Source: Oscillospiraceae bacterium
GTDB lineage: Bacteria > Bacillota > Clostridia > Oscillospirales > Acutalibacteraceae
Assembly (NCBI GenBank): GCA_009785335.1
Contig: WQWM01000016.1
Location: 1-50,408 of the forward strand
Length of the DNA stretch: 50,408 nt
Direction: 5' to 3'
Shown here: piece after piece, positions 18,184 to 34,207 of the stretch
Numbering within the stretch: position 1 is the first letter of the stretch
Layout of the letters: every line of letters starts with the position of its first letter
The notes under the pieces: generated by a model
Database searches by the model: none
Told to the model about the DNA's origin: nothing
What the model saw: the letters and a program-made list of their open reading frames with translations, nothing else
Program-made: the position numbers and the translations under genes

Positions 18184-18957
18184 TCAATCCACGCATTTTT
18201 TGATGCGATCAATCGCACCTTTTTCCAGGCGCGACACTTGTGCCTGCGAAATACCGATTTCCTGTGCAACTTCCATCTGCGTGCGGCCAACCATGAAACG
18301 CAGGTGGAGGATTTTTTTTTCGCGCGCGCTGAGCGATTGCATGGATTGGCGGATCATCATTTCGGAAAGCCAGCTGTCTTCGTTGTTGCGGTCGCCCACT
18401 TGGTCCATCACATAGATGGTGTCGCTGCCGTCGGAATACACTGGCTCGTGCAGCGAAATGGGATCAACGATGCTTTCCAGGGCGAGCACTACATCTTTTT
18501 TCTTCACGCCCATTTCCGCAGCGATTTCCTCCACCGTGGGTTCGCGTTGCAAGGCGATGCCGAGGCGCTCGCGGGCTTGCATGGCGTGATAGGCAGTGTC
18601 GCGCATGCTGCGGCTGACACGGATTGCATTGTTGTCACGCAAATAACGCCGGATTTCACCGATAATCATCGGCACGGCATAGGTGGAAAAACGCACATTA
18701 TGCGCCAAGTCAAAGTTATCAATGGCTTTCATTAGGCCAATGCAGCCCACCTGAAACAGGTCGTCCATGTTTTCGTCGCGGTTGGTGAAGCGTTGCAATA
18801 CGCTGAGCACCAGCCGCAGGTTGCCGTTGACCATTTCCTCGCGGGCTTGCTTGTCACCTACACGCACGCGCTCGAGCAGTGCACGCTTTTCAGCCTCCTT
18901 GAGCACCTTGAGCTTGGCCGTGTTTACCCCGCAAATTTCCACTTTGTTAAAATACAT
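18184..18957 (-). CDS. sigG: RNA polymerase sporulation sigma factor G
   Basis: 257 residues. Directs late forespore gene expression in endospore formers. N-terminal NKVEICGVNTAKL is the SigG hallmark; region 2 contains DDLFQVGCIGLMKAIDNFDL and FSTYAVPMIIGEIRRYLRDN, region 3 SRSMRDTAY, and region 4 the helix-turn-helix EIGISQAQVSRLEK. GGGAGG lies 7 bases before ATG 18957. GCATA and an A-rich stretch lie upstream on the minus strand and could be a SigF/SigG-type promoter, but I cannot fit a clear -10. It stands away from the usual spoIIGA-sigE neighbours. Confidence 0.95.
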   Translation of the reverse strand: MYFNKVEICGVNTAKLKVLKEAEKRALLERVRVGDKQAREEMVNGNLRLVLSVLQRFTNRDENMDDLFQVGCIGLMKAIDNFDLAHNVRFSTYAVPMIIGEIRRYLRDNNAIRVSRSMRDTAYHAMQARERLGIALQREPTVEEIAAEMGVKKKDVVLALESIVDPISLHEPVYSDGSDTIYVMDQVGDRNNEDSWLSEMMIRQSMQSLSAREKKILHLRFMVGRTQMEVAQEIGISQAQVSRLEKGAIDRIKKCVD

Positions 18958-21702: not shown

Positions 21703-24700
21703 ATGCCATTAAATCTTAACTTGAAAAAAGTGCTGGTGATTGGCTCCGGACCAATCGTGATTGGTCAAGCCGCCGAGTTTGACTATGCCGGCACACAGGC
21801 CTGCCGCGCACTGCGCGAAGAAGGCTTGGAAATCGTGTTGATTAACTCCAATCCCGCCACAATCATGACAGACGCGGGCATGGCCGACAAAATCTATATT
21901 GAACCGCTGACGCTCGAAACCATCAAGCGGGTGATTCGCAAAGAAAAACCCGACAGTGTGCTGAGCACTCTGGGCGGGCAAACGGGACTGACACTTTCAA
22001 TGCAACTGGCGAAAGAGGGCTTTCTTGAAAAGCATGGCGTGAAGCTGTTGGGTGCCAAGCCAGAGACAATTGACCGTGCGGAAGATCGCCAAATCTTCAA
22101 AGACACCATGGAGAGCATCAACCAGCCCTGCATTCCCTCAGTGGTGGTAACAGATGTTGAGGAAGCCGTGGCGTTTGCTAACGAAATTGGTTACCCCATG
22201 ATTGTGCGTCCGGCGTTTACGCTAGGCGGTAGTGGTGGTGGCAGCTGTGCCGACGAAGCTGAGCTGCGTGAAATTTGTGCGGGCGGGCTGCGGCTTTCGC
22301 CCATTACCCAGTGCCTGATTGAGAAGAGCATCGCGGGCTGGAAAGAAATTGAGTTTGAAGTGGTGCGCGACGCCAGCGGCAGTGCCATTGCTGTGTGCAG
22401 CATGGAAAACTTGGACCCCGTGGGTGTGCACACTGGTGACAGCATCGTGGTTGCGCCCTGCGTGACGCTTGCAAAAAAAGAGTTCGACATGATGCGCCAG
22501 GCCTCGCTGGACATTGTGCACAGCCTTGAAGTGGAAGGCGGCTGCAATGTGCAGCTTGCATTGCATCCCACCAGTTATGAATACGCGGTGATTGAGGTGA
22601 ACCCGCGCGTGTCGCGTTCATCGGCACTGGCGAGCAAGGCGACGGGTTTCCCCATTGCGAAAGTGGCCACGAAAATTGCCATTGGCTATAACCTGCATGA
22701 AATCGCCAATGCAGTGACGGGCAAAACCATGGCTTGCTTTGAGCCAACATTGGACTACGTTGCGCTGAAGTTCCCCAAGTGGCCGTTTGACAAGTTTGTG
22801 TATGCCAGCCGCACGCTGGGCACGCAAATGAAAGCCACCGGCGAGGTAATGAGCCTTGGCGTGGACTTTGAAGATGCCCTGCGCAAAGCTGTGCGCGGTG
22901 CGGAAATCGGCCGAAATGATTTGTTTACGCCCGCGTGGTATGACATGCCGACAGAGCAGCTGCTGGAGAAAATTGAGACCCCCACGGACGAGCGCTTGTT
23001 CCAAGTGTTTGAATTGCTGCGCCGCGGCGTGAGCGTGGATGAGATTCACGACATCACGTGGATTGATCGTTGGTTCTTGTGGAAGCTGCAAGCGATGTCG
23101 CAAGAAGAAACCCCTGCCGTGGGGCAACGCGTCTTCCGCACGGTGGACACTTGCGCAGGTGAGTTCGACACCGCAACGCCTTATCTGTATAGCGTGCCAA
23201 GCAGCGAAGAAGACGAGGCAGCCAAGTTCATTGCGCAAGGCAGCGGCAAAGAAAAAGTGGTGGTGCTGGGCTCTGGTCCCATTCGCATTGGCCAAGGCAT
23301 TGAGTTTGACTATGCCAGCGTGCACTGCGTGCAGGCATTGCGCAAGCTCGGCTATGAGACCGTGATCATCAACAACAACCCTGAAACTGTGTCGACCGAC
23401 TTTGATACGGCTGATAGGCTTTATTTTGATCCATTGACCGCTGACGACGTGGACACCATCCTCAAGCTGGAAAAACCCATGGGCGTGGTGTGCGCGTTCG
23501 GCGGGCAAACGGCGATTAAACTGGCGAAGTTTTTGCACGAGAACAACTATCCTATTTTGGGTACGCAGTTTGAGGGTATCGACCGCGCCGAAGACCGCGA
23601 CCGCTTTGATGAACTGCTCGAAAAAGTGCAGGTGAAACGCCCCGCAGGCACCACGGTGATGACCATGGAAGAAGCTGTGGCTGTGGGTAACCAGCTGGGC
23701 TACCCTGTGCTGGTGCGGCCGAGTTATGTGCTGGGCGGACAAAACATGGCCATTGCCAACAACGACGACGAAATGCGCGAGTTCATGAAGATTATCCTCG
23801 ACGGCGGCGTGGAGAATCCCGTGCTTGTGGATAAATATCTGATGGGCTTTGAGCTTGAAGTGGATGCTATCTGCGACGGCGAAGATATTCTCATCCCGGG
23901 CATTATGGAGCACATTGAGCGCACTGGCGTGCACAGCGGCGATAGCATTGCCGTGTACCCTGCTATTCACATTGATGACGACATGATTGAGGAAATCGTG
24001 GGAGCAACAAAGCGCATTTCTGCAGAACTTGACATCAAGGGCATTGTGAACATTCAATATCTCATCTGGGAAGGTGAGCTGTATGTCATTGAAGTGAACC
24101 CGCGCGCCAGCCGCACCGTGCCTTACATCAGCAAGGTGACCGGTGTGCCGGTGGCGGAGCTATGCACCCGCTGCATGCTGGGTGAAAAACTCGTGGACAT
24201 CGACTTTGCTCCGCCAGAACATCGCACCGGGCTTTATCCCACCACGCCTTACCATGCGGTGAAAGTGCCTGTATTCTCCTTCCAAAAGCTGCATGGCGTA
24301 GATACCCAGCTTGGGCCCGAGATGAAATCCACCGGCGAAGCGTTGGGCATCGGCAAAACCTTGGAAGAAGCGCTATATAAAGGCTTGCTGGCTGCTGGCT
24401 TTAAGATGCACACCAAGGGCGGCGTGCTCATCACCGTGCGCAAGCAAGACAAACCGGAAATTCCCGCCATTGCGAAGAAATTCGCCGACCTAGGCTTTAC
24501 GCTTTATGCCACCGAAGGCAATGCACAAGTGCTGCGCGAAGCCGGTCTGCAAGTGGAAGCTGTGCCAAAAATTCAAGACAACCCAGAGCACAACACTGCC
24601 ACACTCATCGACAGCGGCAAGGTGCAATATGTGGTATCCACCAGCGCAAAAGGCCGCGATCCCGAGCGCGCCAGCGTGCAAATTCGCTTGCTGTGCAGCA

Positions 24701-25629
24701 AACTGGGCGTGCCTTGCTTGACCTCCATCGACACTGCCAATGCGCTGGCCGACAGCCTGCAAAGCCGCTACAGCGAAATCAACACAGAGCTGGTGGACAT
24801 CAACGCCATGCGCACCCAGCGGCAAACGCTGCACTTTACCAAGCTGCAAACCGGCGGCAACGATTATCTGTACTTCAACTGCTTTGATCAACAGCAGGTG
24901 GCAAGCCCCGAAAGCCTTGCGATTGCGCTTTGTAATCGTGACTACGGCGTGGGTGCGGATGGCATTGTGCTGATTTTGCAAAGCAAAGTTGCCGACGCGA
25001 AAATGCGCATGTTTAACCTAGACGGCAGCGAAGGCCAAGCTTGCGGCAATGGCTTGCGCTGCGTGGCGAAATATCTGCACGACAATAACATTGCCCGCAA
25101 GCGCGACATCACCATTGAAACCGCAACCGGCACAGTGAACGTGCGCGTGAAAACCGTTGAGGGTGTGGTGACCGGTGCGGAAGTGAGCATGGGCAAGCCC
25201 AACTGCGTGCGCGAAAGCATCACCCTGGCAGGCGAGCAATTTGACATCGCGCGGGTGAACATGGGCAACTTGTATGCCGTGTTATTCCCCAGCGAGCAGC
25301 TGGAGGGCTATGATGTGCAGCGCGTGGGCAAGCTGTTGGAAAACGCACGGGAGCATTTCCCTGAGCGCACGAATGTGGCCTTTGCGCAGCTGGCCAATGA
25401 AGGCACCATCAACTTGCGGGTGTGGGAGCGCGGCCAGGGCGAAACGCTCAGCTGTGGCACAGGCGCATGCGCAGCCGTGGTTGCGGCAGTTGACGCAGGC
25501 TTGCTGGCCAAAGGCCGCAGCATCTGCGCAAAGCTGCCCGGTGGCGAGCAGTTTGTGTGTGTGAGCGACGAGAGCGTAACGCTCACGGGCGACGCGAAAA
25601 AAGTCTTTGATGGGACATTGCAGATTTAG
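21703..25629 (+). CDS. carB: Fusion: carbamoyl-phosphate synthase large subunit + diaminopimelate epimerase
   Basis: 1,308 residues in one uninterrupted frame. Residues 1 to about 1,030 are a complete CarB: first ATP-grasp half (VLVIGSGPIVIGQAAEFDYA), second half from about 517 (VVVLGSGPIRIGQGIEFDYA), and the MGS-like regulatory domain (about 905-1,030). From about Met1036 a whole DapF follows: FTKLQTGGND, the two catalytic cysteines Cys1114 (ACGNGLRC) and Cys1251 (ETLSCGTGACA), and ERTNVAFAQ. No ribosome binding site precedes Met1036. CarB makes carbamoyl phosphate for arginine and pyrimidines; DapF makes meso-diaminopimelate for lysine and cell wall. Normal CarB ends near 1,070. Confidence 0.95.
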   Translation: MPLNLNLKKVLVIGSGPIVIGQAAEFDYAGTQACRALREEGLEIVLINSNPATIMTDAGMADKIYIEPLTLETIKRVIRKEKPDSVLSTLGGQTGLTLSMQLAKEGFLEKHGVKLLGAKPETIDRAEDRQIFKDTMESINQPCIPSVVVTDVEEAVAFANEIGYPMIVRPAFTLGGSGGGSCADEAELREICAGGLRLSPITQCLIEKSIAGWKEIEFEVVRDASGSAIAVCSMENLDPVGVHTGDSIVVAPCVTLAKKEFDMMRQASLDIVHSLEVEGGCNVQLALHPTSYEYAVIEVNPRVSRSSALASKATGFPIAKVATKIAIGYNLHEIANAVTGKTMACFEPTLDYVALKFPKWPFDKFVYASRTLGTQMKATGEVMSLGVDFEDALRKAVRGAEIGRNDLFTPAWYDMPTEQLLEKIETPTDERLFQVFELLRRGVSVDEIHDITWIDRWFLWKLQAMSQEETPAVGQRVFRTVDTCAGEFDTATPYLYSVPSSEEDEAAKFIAQGSGKEKVVVLGSGPIRIGQGIEFDYASVHCVQALRKLGYETVIINNNPETVSTDFDTADRLYFDPLTADDVDTILKLEKPMGVVCAFGGQTAIKLAKFLHENNYPILGTQFEGIDRAEDRDRFDELLEKVQVKRPAGTTVMTMEEAVAVGNQLGYPVLVRPSYVLGGQNMAIANNDDEMREFMKIILDGGVENPVLVDKYLMGFELEVDAICDGEDILIPGIMEHIERTGVHSGDSIAVYPAIHIDDDMIEEIVGATKRISAELDIKGIVNIQYLIWEGELYVIEVNPRASRTVPYISKVTGVPVAELCTRCMLGEKLVDIDFAPPEHRTGLYPTTPYHAVKVPVFSFQKLHGVDTQLGPEMKSTGEALGIGKTLEEALYKGLLAAGFKMHTKGGVLITVRKQDKPEIPAIAKKFADLGFTLYATEGNAQVLREAGLQVEAVPKIQDNPEHNTATLIDSGKVQYVVSTSAKGRDPERASVQIRLLCSKLGVPCLTSIDTANALADSLQSRYSEINTELVDINAMRTQRQTLHFTKLQTGGNDYLYFNCFDQQQVASPESLAIALCNRDYGVGADGIVLILQSKVADAKMRMFNLDGSEGQACGNGLRCVAKYLHDNNIARKRDITIETATGTVNVRVKTVEGVVTGAEVSMGKPNCVRESITLAGEQFDIARVNMGNLYAVLFPSEQLEGYDVQRVGKLLENAREHFPERTNVAFAQLANEGTINLRVWERGQGETLSCGTGACAAVVAAVDAGLLAKGRSICAKLPGGEQFVCVSDESVTLTGDAKKVFDGTLQI

Positions 25630-26452: not shown

Positions 26453-29400
26453 ATGAAAAAGAAGGGTACGTATTTTCGGCGCAGCCTGAGTGTTTTACTT
26501 TCGCTGGTGCTGGTATTCACCATGCTGCTCATTGGGTTGACCAGTGCAGCTGGAGCTCCGCATAGCCTGGATTTTGTGCCGGGTGAACCCCCGGCGGCAA
26601 CCGAAGGCGTAGTGTTTCTTGCGCCTGAGGTCATCTATCTGCAGCCTTCAACGGCGGATGTGGGCGCGCAAGTGAACTGGCATCGCTTTGCCGACCAATA
26701 CCTTGATGGGTCGCCGCGTGCAAACGTTGCGGCACGCACAGTGGGTACATTGTACTTCAACTACGCGAATGCGGACTCAGTTGTGATTGAACTTGTGAAT
26801 AACCCCGCAGGCGTGACCGTAAACCATAGTGCGATTCCAACCGGAACGACCACGGTGAATACTAACCTGACCGGCACCTCTTCGCAGCCGGCACGGGTTG
26901 GTACTGCACCTACGTATCTCGGCGGTGGCTATTTGCTGACGTGGCGCGCCACCTATGTAGTAGATGGCGTTGCGCACACAGCCTATACATTCAGCTATGT
27001 ATACCGTCCAATTTACACGCCAACGGCATTGTTTGCAACAATTAATCGTGGTGAAAGAGGCTCACGATACATGACTGCCATGTGGACCAATGGTTTGCAT
27101 CGCAATTTTTCGGGCCCGCACAGCTTGTGGCCGCATTCCTATCATGGCACGGCTCTTCCGGGCTTTAACGCGAATGCCTATAACCAGCGTCAATCGCTGC
27201 ACACCTTGCTTGGTGCAGGGCTGCCGAACAACAGCCAAAATGCCGGCGGTGACGCAGGCCTTCAGCTGAGACGCCAACGGTGGTTTCTGCGCAACACGGC
27301 TGACAACGCGGCAGGGCACAATCATCCCGGCACGGCACACTTGGTTCATTTCCGGGGATTTGCTGACACGTCTTTGCACACCACTACCAGAACCGACCAC
27401 CATATGCAAGATTTCTATGGCAATGCTATGACGGAGAGTAATACCCCATATTTTTGGGCGTGGAATGATAGCGTTAATACGCCGCACTTATTTGTGGATA
27501 CTTCGCGCCATGCCAGCTTTGACCAAATCCCTAACCTTTCCTCCTATATGATTCAAGTGCAAGAACACAGGGGCTGGGGTGAACGCGGTGGTTCGTATGA
27601 TTTCATTGGTTGGAATGCACGCACCACCACGAACAACCTATCGGCACCTGGTTCCACAGGCACCAGAGACTTCTACCCATGGGGCGATAATAACCTGCCG
27701 ACTGCAAACACAGACCGTGGTGCCCAAACACGCGGGCTTGGTGTGGGCGGTAATAATGCTGCTCGTGCGAACAACGAGAATGCATTCATCACCGGTGCTG
27801 CGGCCACCAGCGCGCACCACTTCGGTGGAACCGGGCGGATTATGACTAACACTGCTGGTCTGCGCGGCGGTGCGTGGAATATTCCTGTTCAGTGGGATAA
27901 CACTAATCCTGCATTCCCGACTGTTGCTGCTGCAGAACGCCCAACCACAACCATTCAACCTAATCCGGTAATGCGCTCTGCGCGCTTTGCTAGCGCAGGT
28001 GGTAATAACTCTTTCTCTGACACCGCGCATTTCCGCGCACAAATGAACATTATCCATGCGCACACCAACAGACAACCGCTGCGTGATGCATTCAACGAAA
28101 CCATTGCGTTGGGCTTGCAACGAGACATGTTCCGCCCGCAAGATTGGGATATCTACTTCACGGCATTGACCAACGTAGCCATGGGGCTGATGCGTGTTGA
28201 CCACACCCCGAATGTAACCGCTTTGGTGGGTGCCCTGAACAGTGCAGTTGATGTGTTGCTTGAGGAACTGCTTGGCTTCACGCTGTCGACCACAGTGTTG
28301 GCATCGGCACGCCACATGAACATTCGCAGCACAGCCACACCAATTTTCACCGAAAACCTGACACCCGTGCGCAATGTGGGCGATTTCATCATTGGTCGTC
28401 AACAAGCGAATGCTGCTGGCAACCCAAATTCTTTCCTCAATAACCCCACTAGCACGTTTAACGATGTGCTCATCCGAACTGCTGCCGACGGCGGAGTATA
28501 CAGTTGGGTGTATGTTGAACAGTTTGACCCAACCTATGCCGACAGGCGATTTGTGCCAGCGGGCACTACCTTCCATGCCACGCATGAAAATTTGCGTGTT
28601 CCTCACCCCATGAATACCGGCAATGTTACCCTCACCTGGCGGTTCTATTACACCCCGCGTGTTCGCGTGCAATACTTGGCGAATGGCGGTGTGTTTGCAG
28701 GTGGCGGCACAACAAACAATGTTTTCTATGTGTTGCCGGCAGATAACACTGCAACGCTGCCAATCTATAACGCACCTGAAGCCAGTCAGGGCACTTATCT
28801 GCGTCCAACGCGTGCTGGCTATGCCTTTGCCGGCTGGCGTTTGGTGGCACCGGGCTGTGCTTGCGACGATTGCGAATGCAGCGACTGTGACTGTGCAGAT
28901 GACGTAGCCGGTGCTGTGGTAGACACAGCTGGTGCTCTGCAGCAAGGCACTAACCATCGCTTGATTGCGCAATGGGTGCCCGCGTTTGAACTGCGCTATG
29001 TGCTCAACAGCGGCGTGTTAGCCCCCGGTGTCTATCGCCCGGTGCAGATGGTTATCATTGATGGCAACTGTGATATTCCTGATACCCCTGAATGGGATGA
29101 TGAAATTTCGCGCATTAACAGCATACTGATCGGCTGGGATGTATATTTCCTCAACCATGAAACAGGCGAATTTGAGTTTAGTCATCACCTGTTAGGCCCC
29201 GAAGCGCATAGCATACCCAACGATCTTGGTGAGCACCACGATGTGATTGAACTGCGCGCAGTTTGGGAATCTACGCCGCACAATATCCGCTTTGTGCATA
29301 ACGATGGAACAACCAACTTTACCGATGAACGCCGCGATTATGGCGAGGAGTTGGGTCCCTTCCCAACCTTAACTAGAGCGGGCTTCCAACTGGTGGGCTG

Positions 29401-32400
29401 GTATGACACGCCGACCTTTGATGTAGAAGTGTTTGCAGACGATGTAGTGCAGGCTGGCTTGGTTGGTTTTGACTATGAAATTTTATACGACGAAATTGCT
29501 GCAAGATTCTATGCACGCTGGGAAGCCAGTAATTTCACTGTGACCTTCGACGCTAACGTTGATGATGATGCAGATGGCGATGATTACCCCGACCATGTGG
29601 TGACGGGAACCACGGCATCTCCGCAAACATTCACTTATGGTGCTCCTCCAGCACCACTCAACAGTAATGGCTTTGTACGCGTAGGCTTCACATTTGAGGG
29701 CTGGGCAACGTCGCCTGAAGGCGCAATTGCTGGCGTTGTTGATTTTGAAGATGAAGAAGAAGTGCAAGACCTCACCAATGAGCACAACGGCAATATTCCT
29801 CTATATGCCGTTTGGGCCCCCATCCAATATACCGTAACGTATAACATTGACCCGGCGCATGTTGCGAGTGTAACAGGCGACATGTCTGACGATTACACCG
29901 AACACTACTTTAATGTGCCGAAAAACCTGCGTGCAAACGCCTTTGCGCGCCCGGGCTTTGCGTTCTATGGCTGGACACTCGACCCTGACCCGGCAGTGGG
30001 AGATGTTGTTCGCGACTTCACAAATTCGCAATCCGTAGTTCGCTTGACCGCCGAGCCAGATGACATCATTCCATTGTTTGCCATGTGGACTCCGCTGCCG
30101 TTCACTGTCAACTTCATGGATGGCGATGAGTTGATTAGCAGCGAAACCGAGTACTATGGCGACGATGCAGAAATACCTGATTACACCACGCTTACTCCGC
30201 CAACACCTGGCTATGTGTTTGGCGGCTGGTGGACCTATGTCACTGAGTTCTGCGATGTCGAAGATGATTATGTCACCATTGAGACGCGCTGGCCTGATAG
30301 CGGCGATTTGCTGGTTGACAGCGCTCTGCTTAGCGCGGCTTCGCTAGCCAACAACACCGTGCCCACCAATGTTTATATCCGTTGGGTTGGGCGACAGTTG
30401 CCCGTGCACTGGAACCTCGCTGGTGGGCACTACTACGATGATGCGACCAACACGGCGAATATCGAAACAGAGCAAACGTATAGCAGCACGTTTGAGTTGC
30501 CAAACCAACCCCTGCATCCCACTCCGGGTGTTGTGTTTGTGCGTTGGGTGCGCTATTATGAACGCTCTCAGCCGATTAGCGGCACCACAGTGGTTAACGC
30601 AAACTCCTTGGATGAGCTAACAATTGAAACAGGAACTATCCCCACCATGATGATTGCAGTGTGGGCGTGGGATGGCGTGCATCATATTGAATATCATCTT
30701 GAGGGTGGCAATGTGGACGGCAACACCGGCCCGATCCTCTTTGACATGGAAGTTGGCGATGAGTTCAGAACAGTCGATGTAGAGCTTTGTGGAGAGCTGA
30801 ATTGCGAATGTGAGCTTCTTGAGCAAAACATGCCGCAAGATCCGGTGAAAACAGGCCATAGATTCCTTGGTTGGTTCAGCTTGCCGCAGCATTGCCAGGA
30901 AGACGAAGAGAATTGCGACTGCTTGATTTGCGAAAACGAAGCAGTGCAAGTTGCAGAAGGCGATATTCTCACCGAAGGCTTGGTAGTCGACCTGATGGAC
31001 GGCACAGAAGTTACTGTGTTTTTCGCGCACTGGGCGCGGGTTAATTACAACATTGTGTTTGACCTCAACGGCGGCAACATTGCTGACGACACTGAAAACC
31101 CGACAGATTCGCTATATTTCGGCGATGAAATTGAACTGCCGACCGAACCCACCCGCGACGGCTTCATTTTTGACGGCTGGTGGTTCGACGATGACGAGGA
31201 AATTGTTGACGGTAGAGAACTGGATCACCTGATTTTGAGCGTGGAAAGCCTGGAAGATCCAGACGTCGCGACAGTTTATGTTGCGCGGTGGATTCCGATT
31301 GACTTCACCGTGATATTCGACGCGCAAGGCGGTGAGTTTGATACCGCGCCTTATGACCACAGAACTGACACGGTACAGCTTGAAGACTATTTTGTGCTGC
31401 CTAACCCAGAGCCCACCAAGTATGGCTACGACTTTATGGGTTGGCATAGACAACCGGGCGGCATTGGTGGTGAAATCACAAGTAACACTGTGGCGAGTAC
31501 AGACAACATCAACATGACTGATGGTGACTACGTGTTGTGCACTTGTCCCGAGTGTCCATATGACTGCGCATGTGAATTCGAATGCACGTACAACTGTGCA
31601 TGTCCTCCAGACTGTCCGTACGACTGTGCATGCCCAATCAATTGCTTGTACGATTGCACAACATGCCCAGATCCCCTTGATTGTCAGTACAATTGCTTGT
31701 GCGAACCTGATTGCTCGTATTACTGTGAGTGCGCGCCCGATTGTTTGTACTACTGTGACTGTGAACTCGAGTGTTCGTATGACTGTGTATGCAGTGAAGA
31801 ATGCGAGCCGGTGTGGACATTTGAGCCCACAGTGTTCTTTGCACATTGGATGCCGCGTTCGTTCACACTGACCTTTGACCCGCAAGGCGGCACGCAAAAC
31901 CGCGATAATCAAAGCATCACATTTGGTGAAACACTGGGTGCATCGCAAAACGGCACATTCGCCACGGCAACCCGCGCTGGCTTCACGTTCGCTGGTTGGC
32001 ACGATATGCCGCAAGATCACGCTGATGCAGCTGATGCTGTGCTGGTAGTGCCCAGCGATGTGCTGGAAGCTGCAACAAACATGACCGTGTATGCATGGTG
32101 GACGCCGCGGGCGTTCCAGCTGCACTTTGGCTGCGCGCATGCAACGCCCAGTGTGCCGAGCATTGACACCTTGTTCGGCGAAGCATTTGGAACCTTGGCA
32201 ACTATTGAGCGCAGCGGCCATGAATTCGTGGGCTGGTTTGTGGGCGATGACTTGATCGACGAAAATTCGATTCACAACGTGCCTCGCAACATGAACGCAG
32301 TCGCACGCTGGACGACACGTGACTTTGTGTTCGACTTTATCGGCAACGGTGGCACCCCCAACACTTATGGTGTGCCGCAAACGTATGGCGTAACGGTGAA

Positions 32401-34207
32401 TCGCCCGGCGAATGCAAACCTGCCTACGCGCCTCGGCTACACGTTTACTGGTTGGAACACGGAGCCTGATGGCAGCGGCATTGCGGTTGGCAACGCCACC
32501 ATCGTCAATGCAGATATTATCAACCCGCTTGCCCTTGCAGACAACATGGTTAGCAGCGACATTCCCACGCGTATCTATGCACAGTGGGCGCGCGACACCT
32601 TTAACCTGAGATTTGACTTGCAAGGCGGCAACATTGGCGGCAACGCCAGCCACATCAACACAACGGTGGAATTAGAGCAGCGCTATGAGCAAGCACTGCT
32701 GTGGCCAGGCGAAGATCCAGCCGTGATTGTGCGCGATGGCTATGTTTTCTTGGGCTGGTATACCACGCCTCTCACCGGCGGCAGCCGCATTGTTGGCACG
32801 ATGTATGTGCCGCATGACCTTGTTCCGCCGCCTGGCGTAACCACGCTGTTTGCCCGCTGGTTCCCGGCTGGTCATTATGCTTACCATGTGCATGTGTATC
32901 TGGAAAACACAGACGGCACATTTACGCGCTACGCCTCGCAGCAATACTATGCGCACATTGACAGCATCGTAACGCGCACCGGCGATTACTGGGGCGATGC
33001 GTACTTTGTGTTTGATGCTGGCAATCCCGGCAACGTGTTGTCAGCTGCCATGACAAACGACGGTTCAACGGAACTGATCTTGCATTATCGCCGTGCGATG
33101 GTGAGTTTGTATGTGGACCTTAATGGTGAGAACGCCGTTATCGCAACAAACCCGGCAGGCGAATACCGCTGGGGTCAACAGTTGACGGTAGTAGAGCCCA
33201 CACGTCCGGGTTGGGTATTCCAAGGCTGGCGAGTGATCGGTGCAGGTTCAGAAATGACCGACGACGTGCTCACCTTGGGCCGCGTGGACACCACAATCGT
33301 TGCGCAATGGCAAACTGCACCAATCGCCGTGGTACGGCAGGTAGATAATCATGCTTACTACGACACGTTGATTGTGGAGCTTGGCATGCCGCTGAACACG
33401 CACGGCGAACCAACTGATCCCACGTTGCCCGGCTGGCACTTCATTGGCTGGTCGCAAGATTTGGGTGAAACCTTCCTCAGCGCAACCTGCCGCATTACAC
33501 GTCTTGATCCGATTGACGCAATCTTTGTGCGCGTGTATACGGTGACCTATGATGCAACCTATGGTGCAATTGCGGACGAAGGCGGTCAGACCTCCCTGCG
33601 TCAAGTATGGTACAGCGGCACATTCGGCCAAGGTTTGGGCGGCAGCTTGCCGGTGCCTGGTGCTGAGCGTCTGGGCTACCACCATGTTGGCTGGTTCTTG
33701 CAGCACAACGGTGAAGAGATTCAGGTGTTCACCAATACTGTGGTGCCGCGTCTGAATGCTTTGCCCACGCACAACCCCTCCGGCGTGCTTGCACTCAGTG
33801 GTGAAGTGATTGATACGGATTCTGTCATCGAGGCGCGTTGGGAACTCCTGCGTGACCCCAACCATCCTGAAGATCCCGATTTGTTCCCATGGTGGATATT
33901 GTTGCTGATTGGCATTCCCGCTGCACTTGTGGTCGTCATTGGGCTTGTCCTCGCACCAGTGCTAATGATTTTGGCATCGTTGGTGCCCGGTCGCCTGCTG
34001 TGTTGGTATTGGGAGAATTGTGACCCTGCCACGCAAACCGTACAATTGCAGCAACCGTTGCAAGGCGCAGTAGAGCAGTTGATTGAAGTGACACAAACCA
34101 ACAGCGTAGTTTGGGGTCTTTCCCTGCTGGTGCTGCTGATTGCTGGCGGTGCACTGACTTGGCTGCTGCTGCAACGCCGCAAACAAAGTAAAGTCGTTGG
34201 TGAGTAA
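26453..34207 (+). CDS. Giant secreted/membrane-anchored InlB-repeat protein with Cys-rich module
   Basis: 2,584 residues. Signal peptide (KKKGTYFRRS, then a 20-residue hydrophobic core, cleavage near GAPHS). Residues 40 to about 720 match nothing I recognise (rich in Asn, His, Thr). From about 760 to 2,470 there are about 17 InlB-type (Flg_new-like) repeats, each with a FxGW core such as RAGFTFAGWHD and RLGYTFTGWNT. Cys clusters occur at 802-814 and, strikingly, at 1696-1784 (27 Cys). Two C-terminal hydrophobic segments (about 2,480-2,512 and 2,551-2,574) end in RRKQSKVVGE; no LPXTG sortase motif. GGAGGAG precedes the ATG. Likely a cell-surface protein for adhesion or structure; function unknown. 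Confidence 0.88.
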   Translation: MKKKGTYFRRSLSVLLSLVLVFTMLLIGLTSAAGAPHSLDFVPGEPPAATEGVVFLAPEVIYLQPSTADVGAQVNWHRFADQYLDGSPRANVAARTVGTLYFNYANADSVVIELVNNPAGVTVNHSAIPTGTTTVNTNLTGTSSQPARVGTAPTYLGGGYLLTWRATYVVDGVAHTAYTFSYVYRPIYTPTALFATINRGERGSRYMTAMWTNGLHRNFSGPHSLWPHSYHGTALPGFNANAYNQRQSLHTLLGAGLPNNSQNAGGDAGLQLRRQRWFLRNTADNAAGHNHPGTAHLVHFRGFADTSLHTTTRTDHHMQDFYGNAMTESNTPYFWAWNDSVNTPHLFVDTSRHASFDQIPNLSSYMIQVQEHRGWGERGGSYDFIGWNARTTTNNLSAPGSTGTRDFYPWGDNNLPTANTDRGAQTRGLGVGGNNAARANNENAFITGAAATSAHHFGGTGRIMTNTAGLRGGAWNIPVQWDNTNPAFPTVAAAERPTTTIQPNPVMRSARFASAGGNNSFSDTAHFRAQMNIIHAHTNRQPLRDAFNETIALGLQRDMFRPQDWDIYFTALTNVAMGLMRVDHTPNVTALVGALNSAVDVLLEELLGFTLSTTVLASARHMNIRSTATPIFTENLTPVRNVGDFIIGRQQANAAGNPNSFLNNPTSTFNDVLIRTAADGGVYSWVYVEQFDPTYADRRFVPAGTTFHATHENLRVPHPMNTGNVTLTWRFYYTPRVRVQYLANGGVFAGGGTTNNVFYVLPADNTATLPIYNAPEASQGTYLRPTRAGYAFAGWRLVAPGCACDDCECSDCDCADDVAGAVVDTAGALQQGTNHRLIAQWVPAFELRYVLNSGVLAPGVYRPVQMVIIDGNCDIPDTPEWDDEISRINSILIGWDVYFLNHETGEFEFSHHLLGPEAHSIPNDLGEHHDVIELRAVWESTPHNIRFVHNDGTTNFTDERRDYGEELGPFPTLTRAGFQLVGWYDTPTFDVEVFADDVVQAGLVGFDYEILYDEIAARFYARWEASNFTVTFDANVDDDADGDDYPDHVVTGTTASPQTFTYGAPPAPLNSNGFVRVGFTFEGWATSPEGAIAGVVDFEDEEEVQDLTNEHNGNIPLYAVWAPIQYTVTYNIDPAHVASVTGDMSDDYTEHYFNVPKNLRANAFARPGFAFYGWTLDPDPAVGDVVRDFTNSQSVVRLTAEPDDIIPLFAMWTPLPFTVNFMDGDELISSETEYYGDDAEIPDYTTLTPPTPGYVFGGWWTYVTEFCDVEDDYVTIETRWPDSGDLLVDSALLSAASLANNTVPTNVYIRWVGRQLPVHWNLAGGHYYDDATNTANIETEQTYSSTFELPNQPLHPTPGVVFVRWVRYYERSQPISGTTVVNANSLDELTIETGTIPTMMIAVWAWDGVHHIEYHLEGGNVDGNTGPILFDMEVGDEFRTVDVELCGELNCECELLEQNMPQDPVKTGHRFLGWFSLPQHCQEDEENCDCLICENEAVQVAEGDILTEGLVVDLMDGTEVTVFFAHWARVNYNIVFDLNGGNIADDTENPTDSLYFGDEIELPTEPTRDGFIFDGWWFDDDEEIVDGRELDHLILSVESLEDPDVATVYVARWIPIDFTVIFDAQGGEFDTAPYDHRTDTVQLEDYFVLPNPEPTKYGYDFMGWHRQPGGIGGEITSNTVASTDNINMTDGDYVLCTCPECPYDCACEFECTYNCACPPDCPYDCACPINCLYDCTTCPDPLDCQYNCLCEPDCSYYCECAPDCLYYCDCELECSYDCVCSEECEPVWTFEPTVFFAHWMPRSFTLTFDPQGGTQNRDNQSITFGETLGASQNGTFATATRAGFTFAGWHDMPQDHADAADAVLVVPSDVLEAATNMTVYAWWTPRAFQLHFGCAHATPSVPSIDTLFGEAFGTLATIERSGHEFVGWFVGDDLIDENSIHNVPRNMNAVARWTTRDFVFDFIGNGGTPNTYGVPQTYGVTVNRPANANLPTRLGYTFTGWNTEPDGSGIAVGNATIVNADIINPLALADNMVSSDIPTRIYAQWARDTFNLRFDLQGGNIGGNASHINTTVELEQRYEQALLWPGEDPAVIVRDGYVFLGWYTTPLTGGSRIVGTMYVPHDLVPPPGVTTLFARWFPAGHYAYHVHVYLENTDGTFTRYASQQYYAHIDSIVTRTGDYWGDAYFVFDAGNPGNVLSAAMTNDGSTELILHYRRAMVSLYVDLNGENAVIATNPAGEYRWGQQLTVVEPTRPGWVFQGWRVIGAGSEMTDDVLTLGRVDTTIVAQWQTAPIAVVRQVDNHAYYDTLIVELGMPLNTHGEPTDPTLPGWHFIGWSQDLGETFLSATCRITRLDPIDAIFVRVYTVTYDATYGAIADEGGQTSLRQVWYSGTFGQGLGGSLPVPGAERLGYHHVGWFLQHNGEEIQVFTNTVVPRLNALPTHNPSGVLALSGEVIDTDSVIEARWELLRDPNHPEDPDLFPWWILLLIGIPAALVVVIGLVLAPVLMILASLVPGRLLCWYWENCDPATQTVQLQQPLQGAVEQLIEVTQTNSVVWGLSLLVLLIAGGALTWLLLQRRKQSKVVGE
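31538..31804 (+). repeat. Eight-copy decapeptide Cys repeat within the giant protein
   Basis: Encodes residues 1696-1784, about eight copies of a ten-residue unit of the form x-x-D/E-C-x-Y-x-C-x-C (PPDCPYDCAC, EPDCSYYCEC, APDCLYYCDC, ELECSYDCVC). Two units have one or two extra residues. 27 cysteines in 89 residues. Confidence 0.9.

Follow-up and report, generated by a model that had tools for sequence, protein, structure and literature searches.

The window analyzed here, a stretch of 50,408 nucleotides (contig WQWM01000016.1, positions 1 to 50,408, of the Oscillospiraceae bacterium assembly GCA_009785335.1), encodes a protein in which the large subunit of carbamoyl-phosphate synthase (CPS), CarB, runs in frame into diaminopimelate (DAP) epimerase, DapF. 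The fusion is shared with many relatives, is old and of single origin on the CarB tree, and in many lineages its DapF half lacks the first of two catalytic cysteines while the DAP-binding pocket around it is kept. We tentatively favor a model, somewhat short of probable in our judgment, in which a carB–dapF fusion of single origin yielded a DapF half that binds DAP and modulates CPS, and that epimerizes DAP in some lineages and is epimerase-dead in others.

Results

A complete CarB and a complete DapF in one chain

The fusion gene is a single open frame of 1308 codons on the forward strand (21703–25629). The whole protein matches the CarB model TIGR01369 with 1364 bits (cut-off 1027; NF003671 was also matched), and the DapF part matches TIGR00652 with 235.7 bits over residues 1044–1306 (cut-off 114.65), the Pfam DAP_epimerase match beginning at residue 1046. 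An initial annotation, made from the sequence alone, had described a complete CarB joined to a complete DapF in one chain of 1,308 residues with catalytic cysteines at Cys1114 and Cys1251, and both the architecture and the two positions were confirmed. At 18 positions of the two ATP-grasp halves, picked through the E. coli alignment and presumably catalytic in the roles we assign to them, all residues are intact in the window protein, as they are in 95 of 95 fusions. The end of carA and the start of the fusion gene are one base apart, and 56 of the 77 named fused loci have carA no more than 400 nt upstream. By family knowledge, the CarB half should form a normal glutamine-dependent CPS with CarA, and copies with two cysteines would be expected to epimerize DAP.

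The same frame is present at 94% identity in the sister genome G010. Genomes of at least 90% completeness were sampled evenly at two levels, both samples including the window's own genome. Among 393 genomes of the class, 52 carry the fusion, under 26 family codes (frames of 644–1393 aa, four of them below 1200), and among 299 of the phylum, 15 do at E ≤ 1e-55; the architecture, for which the initial annotation had recommended a search, has relatives. A scan of named genomes used a 29-sequence junction alignment, one of whose two patterns is general to DapF, and gave at least 594 related stretches. The best 80 of these were taken as loci, and the junction lies within one frame in all 80, contig ends cutting some of the frames. 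Carriers include many Oscillospiraceae-type metagenome-assembled genomes (MAGs), MAGs of Treponema and Spirochaetaceae, and the strain-named Ruminococcus sp. FC2018 and Neglectibacter sp. X58, which bear no MAG tag. Occurrence of the same fusion in G010 and in many relatives rules out a sequencing or assembly error. The claim that no CarB–DapF enzyme had been described also held, in that literature searches found no paper on such a fusion (one broad search was covered by its top-ranked matches only). At three loci (L085, L091, and G212:C11), a stand-alone dapF directly adjoins the fusion as a tandem pair.

A single origin and a continuous junction

The CarB tree comprises 95 fused and 15 unfused sequences. 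Fused proteins fall into one clade with 100% Shimodaira–Hasegawa (SH) support, within which one unfused member (L183) is nested; on this tree, the fusion is old and arose once. The DapF tree agrees loosely, with 132 of 135 fused DapFs grouping with one stand-alone DapF, although on a very short branch. All trees were built with FastTree alone, and the changes of state inferred from them could have gone either way. In the unfused relative L184, CarB ends in EMVDINTIR followed by a stop, where fused proteins continue from NTELVDIN-x-[ML]R, and because this unfused CarB stops at the same place, the fusion probably arose through loss of the carB stop codon.

We set aside as weak an origin from a carB–dapF neighbor pair still visible today. 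The two genes adjoin in four of 20 unfused regions (L177, L178, L185, and L192), the CarBs of these pairs lie far from the fused clade on the tree, and in L187–L191, picked for a match running across stops, no carB stands beside dapF. One adjacent pair, L185, comes from the window's genus (G009). Its CarB is distant, and the stand-alone dapF behind it encodes both cysteines and groups within the fused DapFs; the CarB half may have been replaced. In L183 (G038), with its CarB inside the fused clade, the DapF half is gone and the stop is followed by what by eye is a terminator-like hairpin; no dapF was found in that genome. Fusions in Treponema and Spirochaetaceae (L082, L113, L132, L139, L196–L198, and L200) are represented by four sequences on the CarB tree, where they fall in two separate places. 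One of these adjoins Oscillospiraceae-type sequences, and the placement suggests horizontal transfer.

At the position where DapF begins, 106 of 110 fused loci could be read: 78 have ATG there and the other 28 a codon for Leu, which in 27 cases is not a start codon. AGGA or GAGG stands upstream of none of the 79 ATG or TTG DapF starts, versus 512 of 3958 (13%) internal ATGs. Together with the 27 non-start codons, this led us to reject internal re-initiation and bears out the earlier statement that the chain has no internal ribosome site. An AlphaFold model of residues 500–1308, with 82 sequences, has a mean predicted local distance difference test (pLDDT) score of 88.7 and a predicted template modeling (pTM) score of 0.87. 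The ten-residue blocks at the junction score 91 and 89, and these high values suggest a fixed joint between CarB and DapF over a floppy tether.

Recurrent absence of the first catalytic cysteine

Our comparison of DapF halves covers 107 distinct fusions, a non-random set made up of the best 80 of the at least 594 junction matches and 30 near relatives, less three duplicates. Of these, 58 retain the equivalent of Cys73; the other 49 have Ala (27), Gly (14), Ser (seven), or Phe (one) in its place, and well-supported branches of the CarB tree require a minimum of 10 changes of state at this position. Cys217 is kept in 104 of the 107, including 47 of the 49 that lack Cys73 (C73-less fusions hereafter). 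Of the 30 class-level loci that were read, taken best-scoring first from the 52, 26 are intact and four C73-less (L156, L157, L162, and L172).

What has become of the remainder of the active site? The reactive center and the distal DAP contacts are known from the DapFs of C. glutamicum and H. influenzae, as described in the available parts of PMC5296763 and PMC8225329. In the 45 full-length C73-less fusions, the equivalents of C217, H159, N190, E208, and R209 are present in all 45, those of N64 and N157 in 44, and that of N11 in 39; across all 49, each DAP contact is kept in 47 to 49, except N11 (40 of 49). When 50 intact and 20 C73-less sequences are compared, with the arginine clade described below excluded, only column 73 clearly differs (Jensen–Shannon (JS) divergence 1.0, next column 0.43). 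All 40 stand-alone DapFs that were read have both cysteines (26 in L033–L061, four from Treponema, L185, and nine more). Since, among the copies read, the cysteine is absent only from fused ones, and with the pocket kept, the fused domain appears to tolerate or favor the loss of one thiol, unlike free DapF. For want of the first catalytic cysteine, the C73-less fusions should be epimerase-dead.

In the window protein, both cysteines are present, as is every DAP contact checked (the equivalents of N11, N64, N157, N190, E208, and R209). Its GNPH motif reads GNLY, and that of the sister G010 GNMY; the proline and histidine are retained in the other 105 fusions. The window's genome, a draft of 58 contigs that is 90.45% complete, has the fusion as its only TIGR00652 match, so that the separate dapF which the initial annotation had proposed to look for was not found there. 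Also encoded are a DAP dehydrogenase (Ddh; 290 bits, cut-off 180.6), dapB, and lysA; the seven scanned neighbors of the fusion, two of them without any match, yielded no dapL and no arginine gene, the search for dapL being confined to these neighbors. Because GNLY replaces GNPH and the same genome encodes Ddh, the activity of the window's epimerase is uncertain: it may be intact, weakened, or dispensable, the last because Ddh is a second route to meso-DAP. The link to lysine and peptidoglycan synthesis that had been read from the sequence thus stands as far as the single chain is concerned, but a working bifunctional enzyme cannot be generalized from it, given the C73-less relatives and the Ddh of the window's genome.

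Other routes to meso-DAP

Ddh was tested in 80 genomes, namely all 49 with C73-less fusions and 31 hand-picked from the 58 with intact ones. A stand-alone dapF or Ddh is present in 43 of the 49 C73-less versus 18 of the 31 intact genomes (Fisher p 0.003), and when only a stand-alone dapF is counted, the figures are 26 of 49 versus 12 of 58 (p 0.0006); the dapF counts take in two partial copies (G385 and G412), and both of those genomes also have Ddh. A rule that the cysteine is absent only where there is another meso-DAP route, which would account for the 43, was nonetheless rejected, as it has exceptions and is non-significant after correction for the tree. Six C73-less fusions are found without either gene: those of Treponema G349, G377, and G399, those of G379 and G401, and a fragmentary Synergistaceae copy in G410. 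dapB is present in five of these six genomes and was not found in G410; of the five tested for LysA (G410 excluded), four have only a LysA-like match below cut-off and G377 has none. In the genus of G399, 39 genomes comprise 18 with the fusion (two of them partial frames), four with a stand-alone DapF, one with fragments, and 16 without a match, and all five fusions read from this genus have Ala at position 73 (L139, L196, L197, L198, and L200).

Gene neighborhoods and the arginine clade

Neighbors were counted by script at the 77 named fused loci (41 intact and 36 C73-less, related loci not being independent), with gene identities assigned through NCBIfam and Pfam on one representative each. 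The gene for LL-DAP aminotransferase, dapL, lies downstream of 18 of 41 intact and 0 of 36 C73-less fusions, at least 1.5 kb of downstream sequence being present in 39 and 30, respectively. Conversely, arginine genes (argJ, argB, argD, and argF) lie upstream of 0 of 41 intact and 13 of 36 C73-less fusions, with at least 2.5 kb of upstream sequence in 26 and 29; the argF match at L115 may be another carbamoyltransferase. pyrG is found on either side of 15 intact and no C73-less fusions, an ANTAR regulator upstream of 10 and two, and glnA at four and three.

Nearly all arginine-gene loci belong to one clade of 25 rows. In this arginine clade, eight columns of the MGS domain (residues 979–995) share no residue with the intact fusions, and the equivalent of K993 is kept in only eight of 25; the DapF pocket is intact. 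Judged from these columns, the MGS effector pocket is rewritten in the arginine clade.

Coordinates of the features in the window are collected in Table 1. Near carA and the fusion gene also lie a gene for the sporulation sigma factor SigG (18184–18957, reverse strand) and one for a 2584-aa protein with List_Bact_rpt repeats (26453–34207, forward strand).

Table 1. Features of the carA–carB-dapF region, in window positions
Feature	Position	Strand	Basis
carA, small (glutaminase) subunit of CPS, 345 aa	20664..21701	+	NCBIfam PRK12838, 330 bits (cut-off 221)
carB-dapF fusion gene, 1308 aa	21703..25629	+	Frame and profile matches; architecture common to relatives
CarB half, residues 1-1035: two ATP-grasp units, oligomerization and MGS domains	21703..24807	+	
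MGS allosteric domain, residues 922-1007	24466..24723	+	Pfam PF02142
Junction, residues 1027-1037	24781..24813	+	29 aligned fusions: CarB tail NTELVDIN-x-[ML]R, then DapF with zero added linker
DapF half, residues 1036-1308	24808..25626	+	TIGR00652 and Foldseek matches to solved DapF structures
Cys1114, equivalent of H. influenzae Cys73, first catalytic cysteine	25042..25044	+	
GNLY replacing GNPH, residues 1188-1191	25264..25275	+	
Cys1251, equivalent of Cys217, second catalytic cysteine	25453..25455	+	

Discussion

We propose the following model for the fused protein. The DapF half would be held against the MGS regulatory domain and would bind DAP, and its occupancy or conformation would modulate CPS, a textbook allosteric enzyme that answers to UMP, IMP, and ornithine. 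Carbamoyl phosphate, used for UTP and hence UDP-sugars as well as for arginine, would thereby be tied to the DAP, lysine, and cell-wall branch. Where the cell needs meso-DAP, the same domain would epimerize LL-DAP to meso-DAP with its two cysteines, often beside dapL; where another source of meso-DAP exists, the first cysteine would often have been dropped, and a domain that only binds would remain. Having kept both cysteines, the window protein would probably still be bifunctional, or have been so until recently. We regard as rather unlikely a bolder version of this model, in which removal of one thiol turned DapF into an amino-acid-sensing domain of CPS in many lineages, with carbamoyl phosphate set by DAP, and in which the domain took over control from the rewritten MGS site in the arginine-operon branch.

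Several points weigh against a DAP-binding, CPS-modulating DapF half. The initial annotation had considered allosteric cross-talk possible, and this fits the selective absence of the cysteine, the kept pocket, and the confident junction, but we infer the coupling from conservation, and the AlphaFold model comes without an inter-domain error estimate. In all groups, DapF halves evolve faster than CarB. The ratio of nonsynonymous to synonymous substitution rates (dN/dS) of the DapF half, measured with synonymous sites partly saturated, is higher in three C73-less pairs (about 0.11, 0.21, and 0.14) and in the window's pair (0.13) than in five other intact pairs (0.02–0.08), so that constraint on the former looks looser. 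In favor of the model, however, the values for the C73-less pairs are well under 1 and selection is still purifying, and the ratio of DapF to CarB divergence is alike in C73-less (1.35) and intact pairs (1.41). Both catalytic cysteines are lost in L101, L122, and L205, the whole DapF domain is lost in G038, and L008 (G041) has kept Cys73 and changed Cys217 to Ser in a genome in which no other meso-DAP route was found. After correction for the tree, the link between cysteine loss and other meso-DAP routes is non-significant (on average 3.4 pairs for and 0.0 against, of eight; median p 0.25). The dapB-bearing exceptions (G349, G377, G399, G379, and G401) may reflect incomplete genomes, the lack of a need for meso-DAP, or residual activity. 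Finally, treponeme peptidoglycan has ornithine in place of DAP, according to the available part of PMC5104382, and it is awkward for a DAP sensor that a Treponema genus has kept C73-less fusions all the same; their retention argues for a role independent of epimerization, without pointing clearly to DAP as what is bound.

The strongest competitor, to which we give a real if minority chance, is a plain bifunctional enzyme, whose fusion fixes stoichiometry and co-expression and whose DapF half, once dead, is kept for folding or assembly of CPS. Such an enzyme would fit the intact cysteines beside dapL, the 13 of 31 tested intact genomes in which no other meso-DAP route was found, and the looser constraint that C73-less pairs show in their DapF half; the confident junction agrees with it too, as does the dimerization of DapF (PMC5296763, available part). 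A structural relic, however, would have no need to keep the DAP contacts and Cys217 at 44–45 of 45 when many separate lineages lack the first cysteine.

The retained Cys217 might alternatively serve a new one-base chemistry on DAP or a relative of it, such as proton exchange or elimination. Changed catalytic residues on the same fold are known from PhzF and the hydroxyproline dehydratases, Cys217 persists in 47 of 49 despite the broken epimerase pair, and five dapB-bearing genomes have, as far as was found, no DapF other than the C73-less domain. Yet the distal DAP contacts are unchanged, and position 73, which varies among Ala, Gly, Ser, and Phe, shows no shared residue that might be newly catalytic; we consider this alternative improbable. 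That an assembly error removed a stop, or that cleavage or re-initiation yields two ordinary enzymes from this gene, is highly improbable despite the 58-contig draft and the frequent ATG at the DapF start, given the class-level carriers, the two strain-named genomes, the missing ribosome site, and the non-start codons at the junction.

If the DapF half is indeed a ligand-binding partner of CPS, a fused DAP-binding domain would represent a new control of CPS, linking the supply of nucleotides and arginine to that of cell wall and lysine. Many lineages lack one cysteine in an otherwise intact pocket and so amount to a natural mutagenesis series, in which the question of catalyst or sensor is directly testable. 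This pattern also makes annotation alone an unsafe ground for calling a genome DapF-positive, since 49 of 107 fused copies should not epimerize DAP.

How does the fused protein relate to known systems? E. coli CarB (1bxr) is alike in all domains, in identity at the 18 catalytic positions, and in the adjacent carA, with 44% identity over the aligned part of the model; unlike it, the window protein has no stop after the MGS domain and continues for 273 more residues, which are DapF. Solved DapFs (2otn, 1gqz, and 5m47) agree with the window protein in fold, in the pair of cysteines, and in the DAP contacts that were checked; the window protein differs in being fused as the C-terminal part of CarB and in its GNLY, and the first cysteine is absent from many of its fused relatives.

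Chlamydia reportedly has a DapF/glutamate racemase, a bifunctional lysine-pathway enzyme with its own model (NF038284), against which the window DapF scores 104.6 bits (cut-off 350) and which we therefore rejected as its identity. Aspartate kinase–DAP decarboxylase and dihydrodipicolinate reductase–DAP aminotransferase are further bifunctional enzymes of this pathway (PMC2705460, available part); like the fusion they combine two jobs in one chain, but none with a CPS partner was seen in that part of the source. A functional parallel is that of E. coli DapF and RppH (6d13), in which, according to the available part of PMC4227774, DapF acts on another enzyme independently of its epimerase activity, activating RppH even with both cysteines changed to Ala. 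The two are separate chains, the partner is another one, and that part of the source mentions no ligand-sensing role; even so, the precedent would lend help to the idea that the DapF half senses DAP and acts on CPS.

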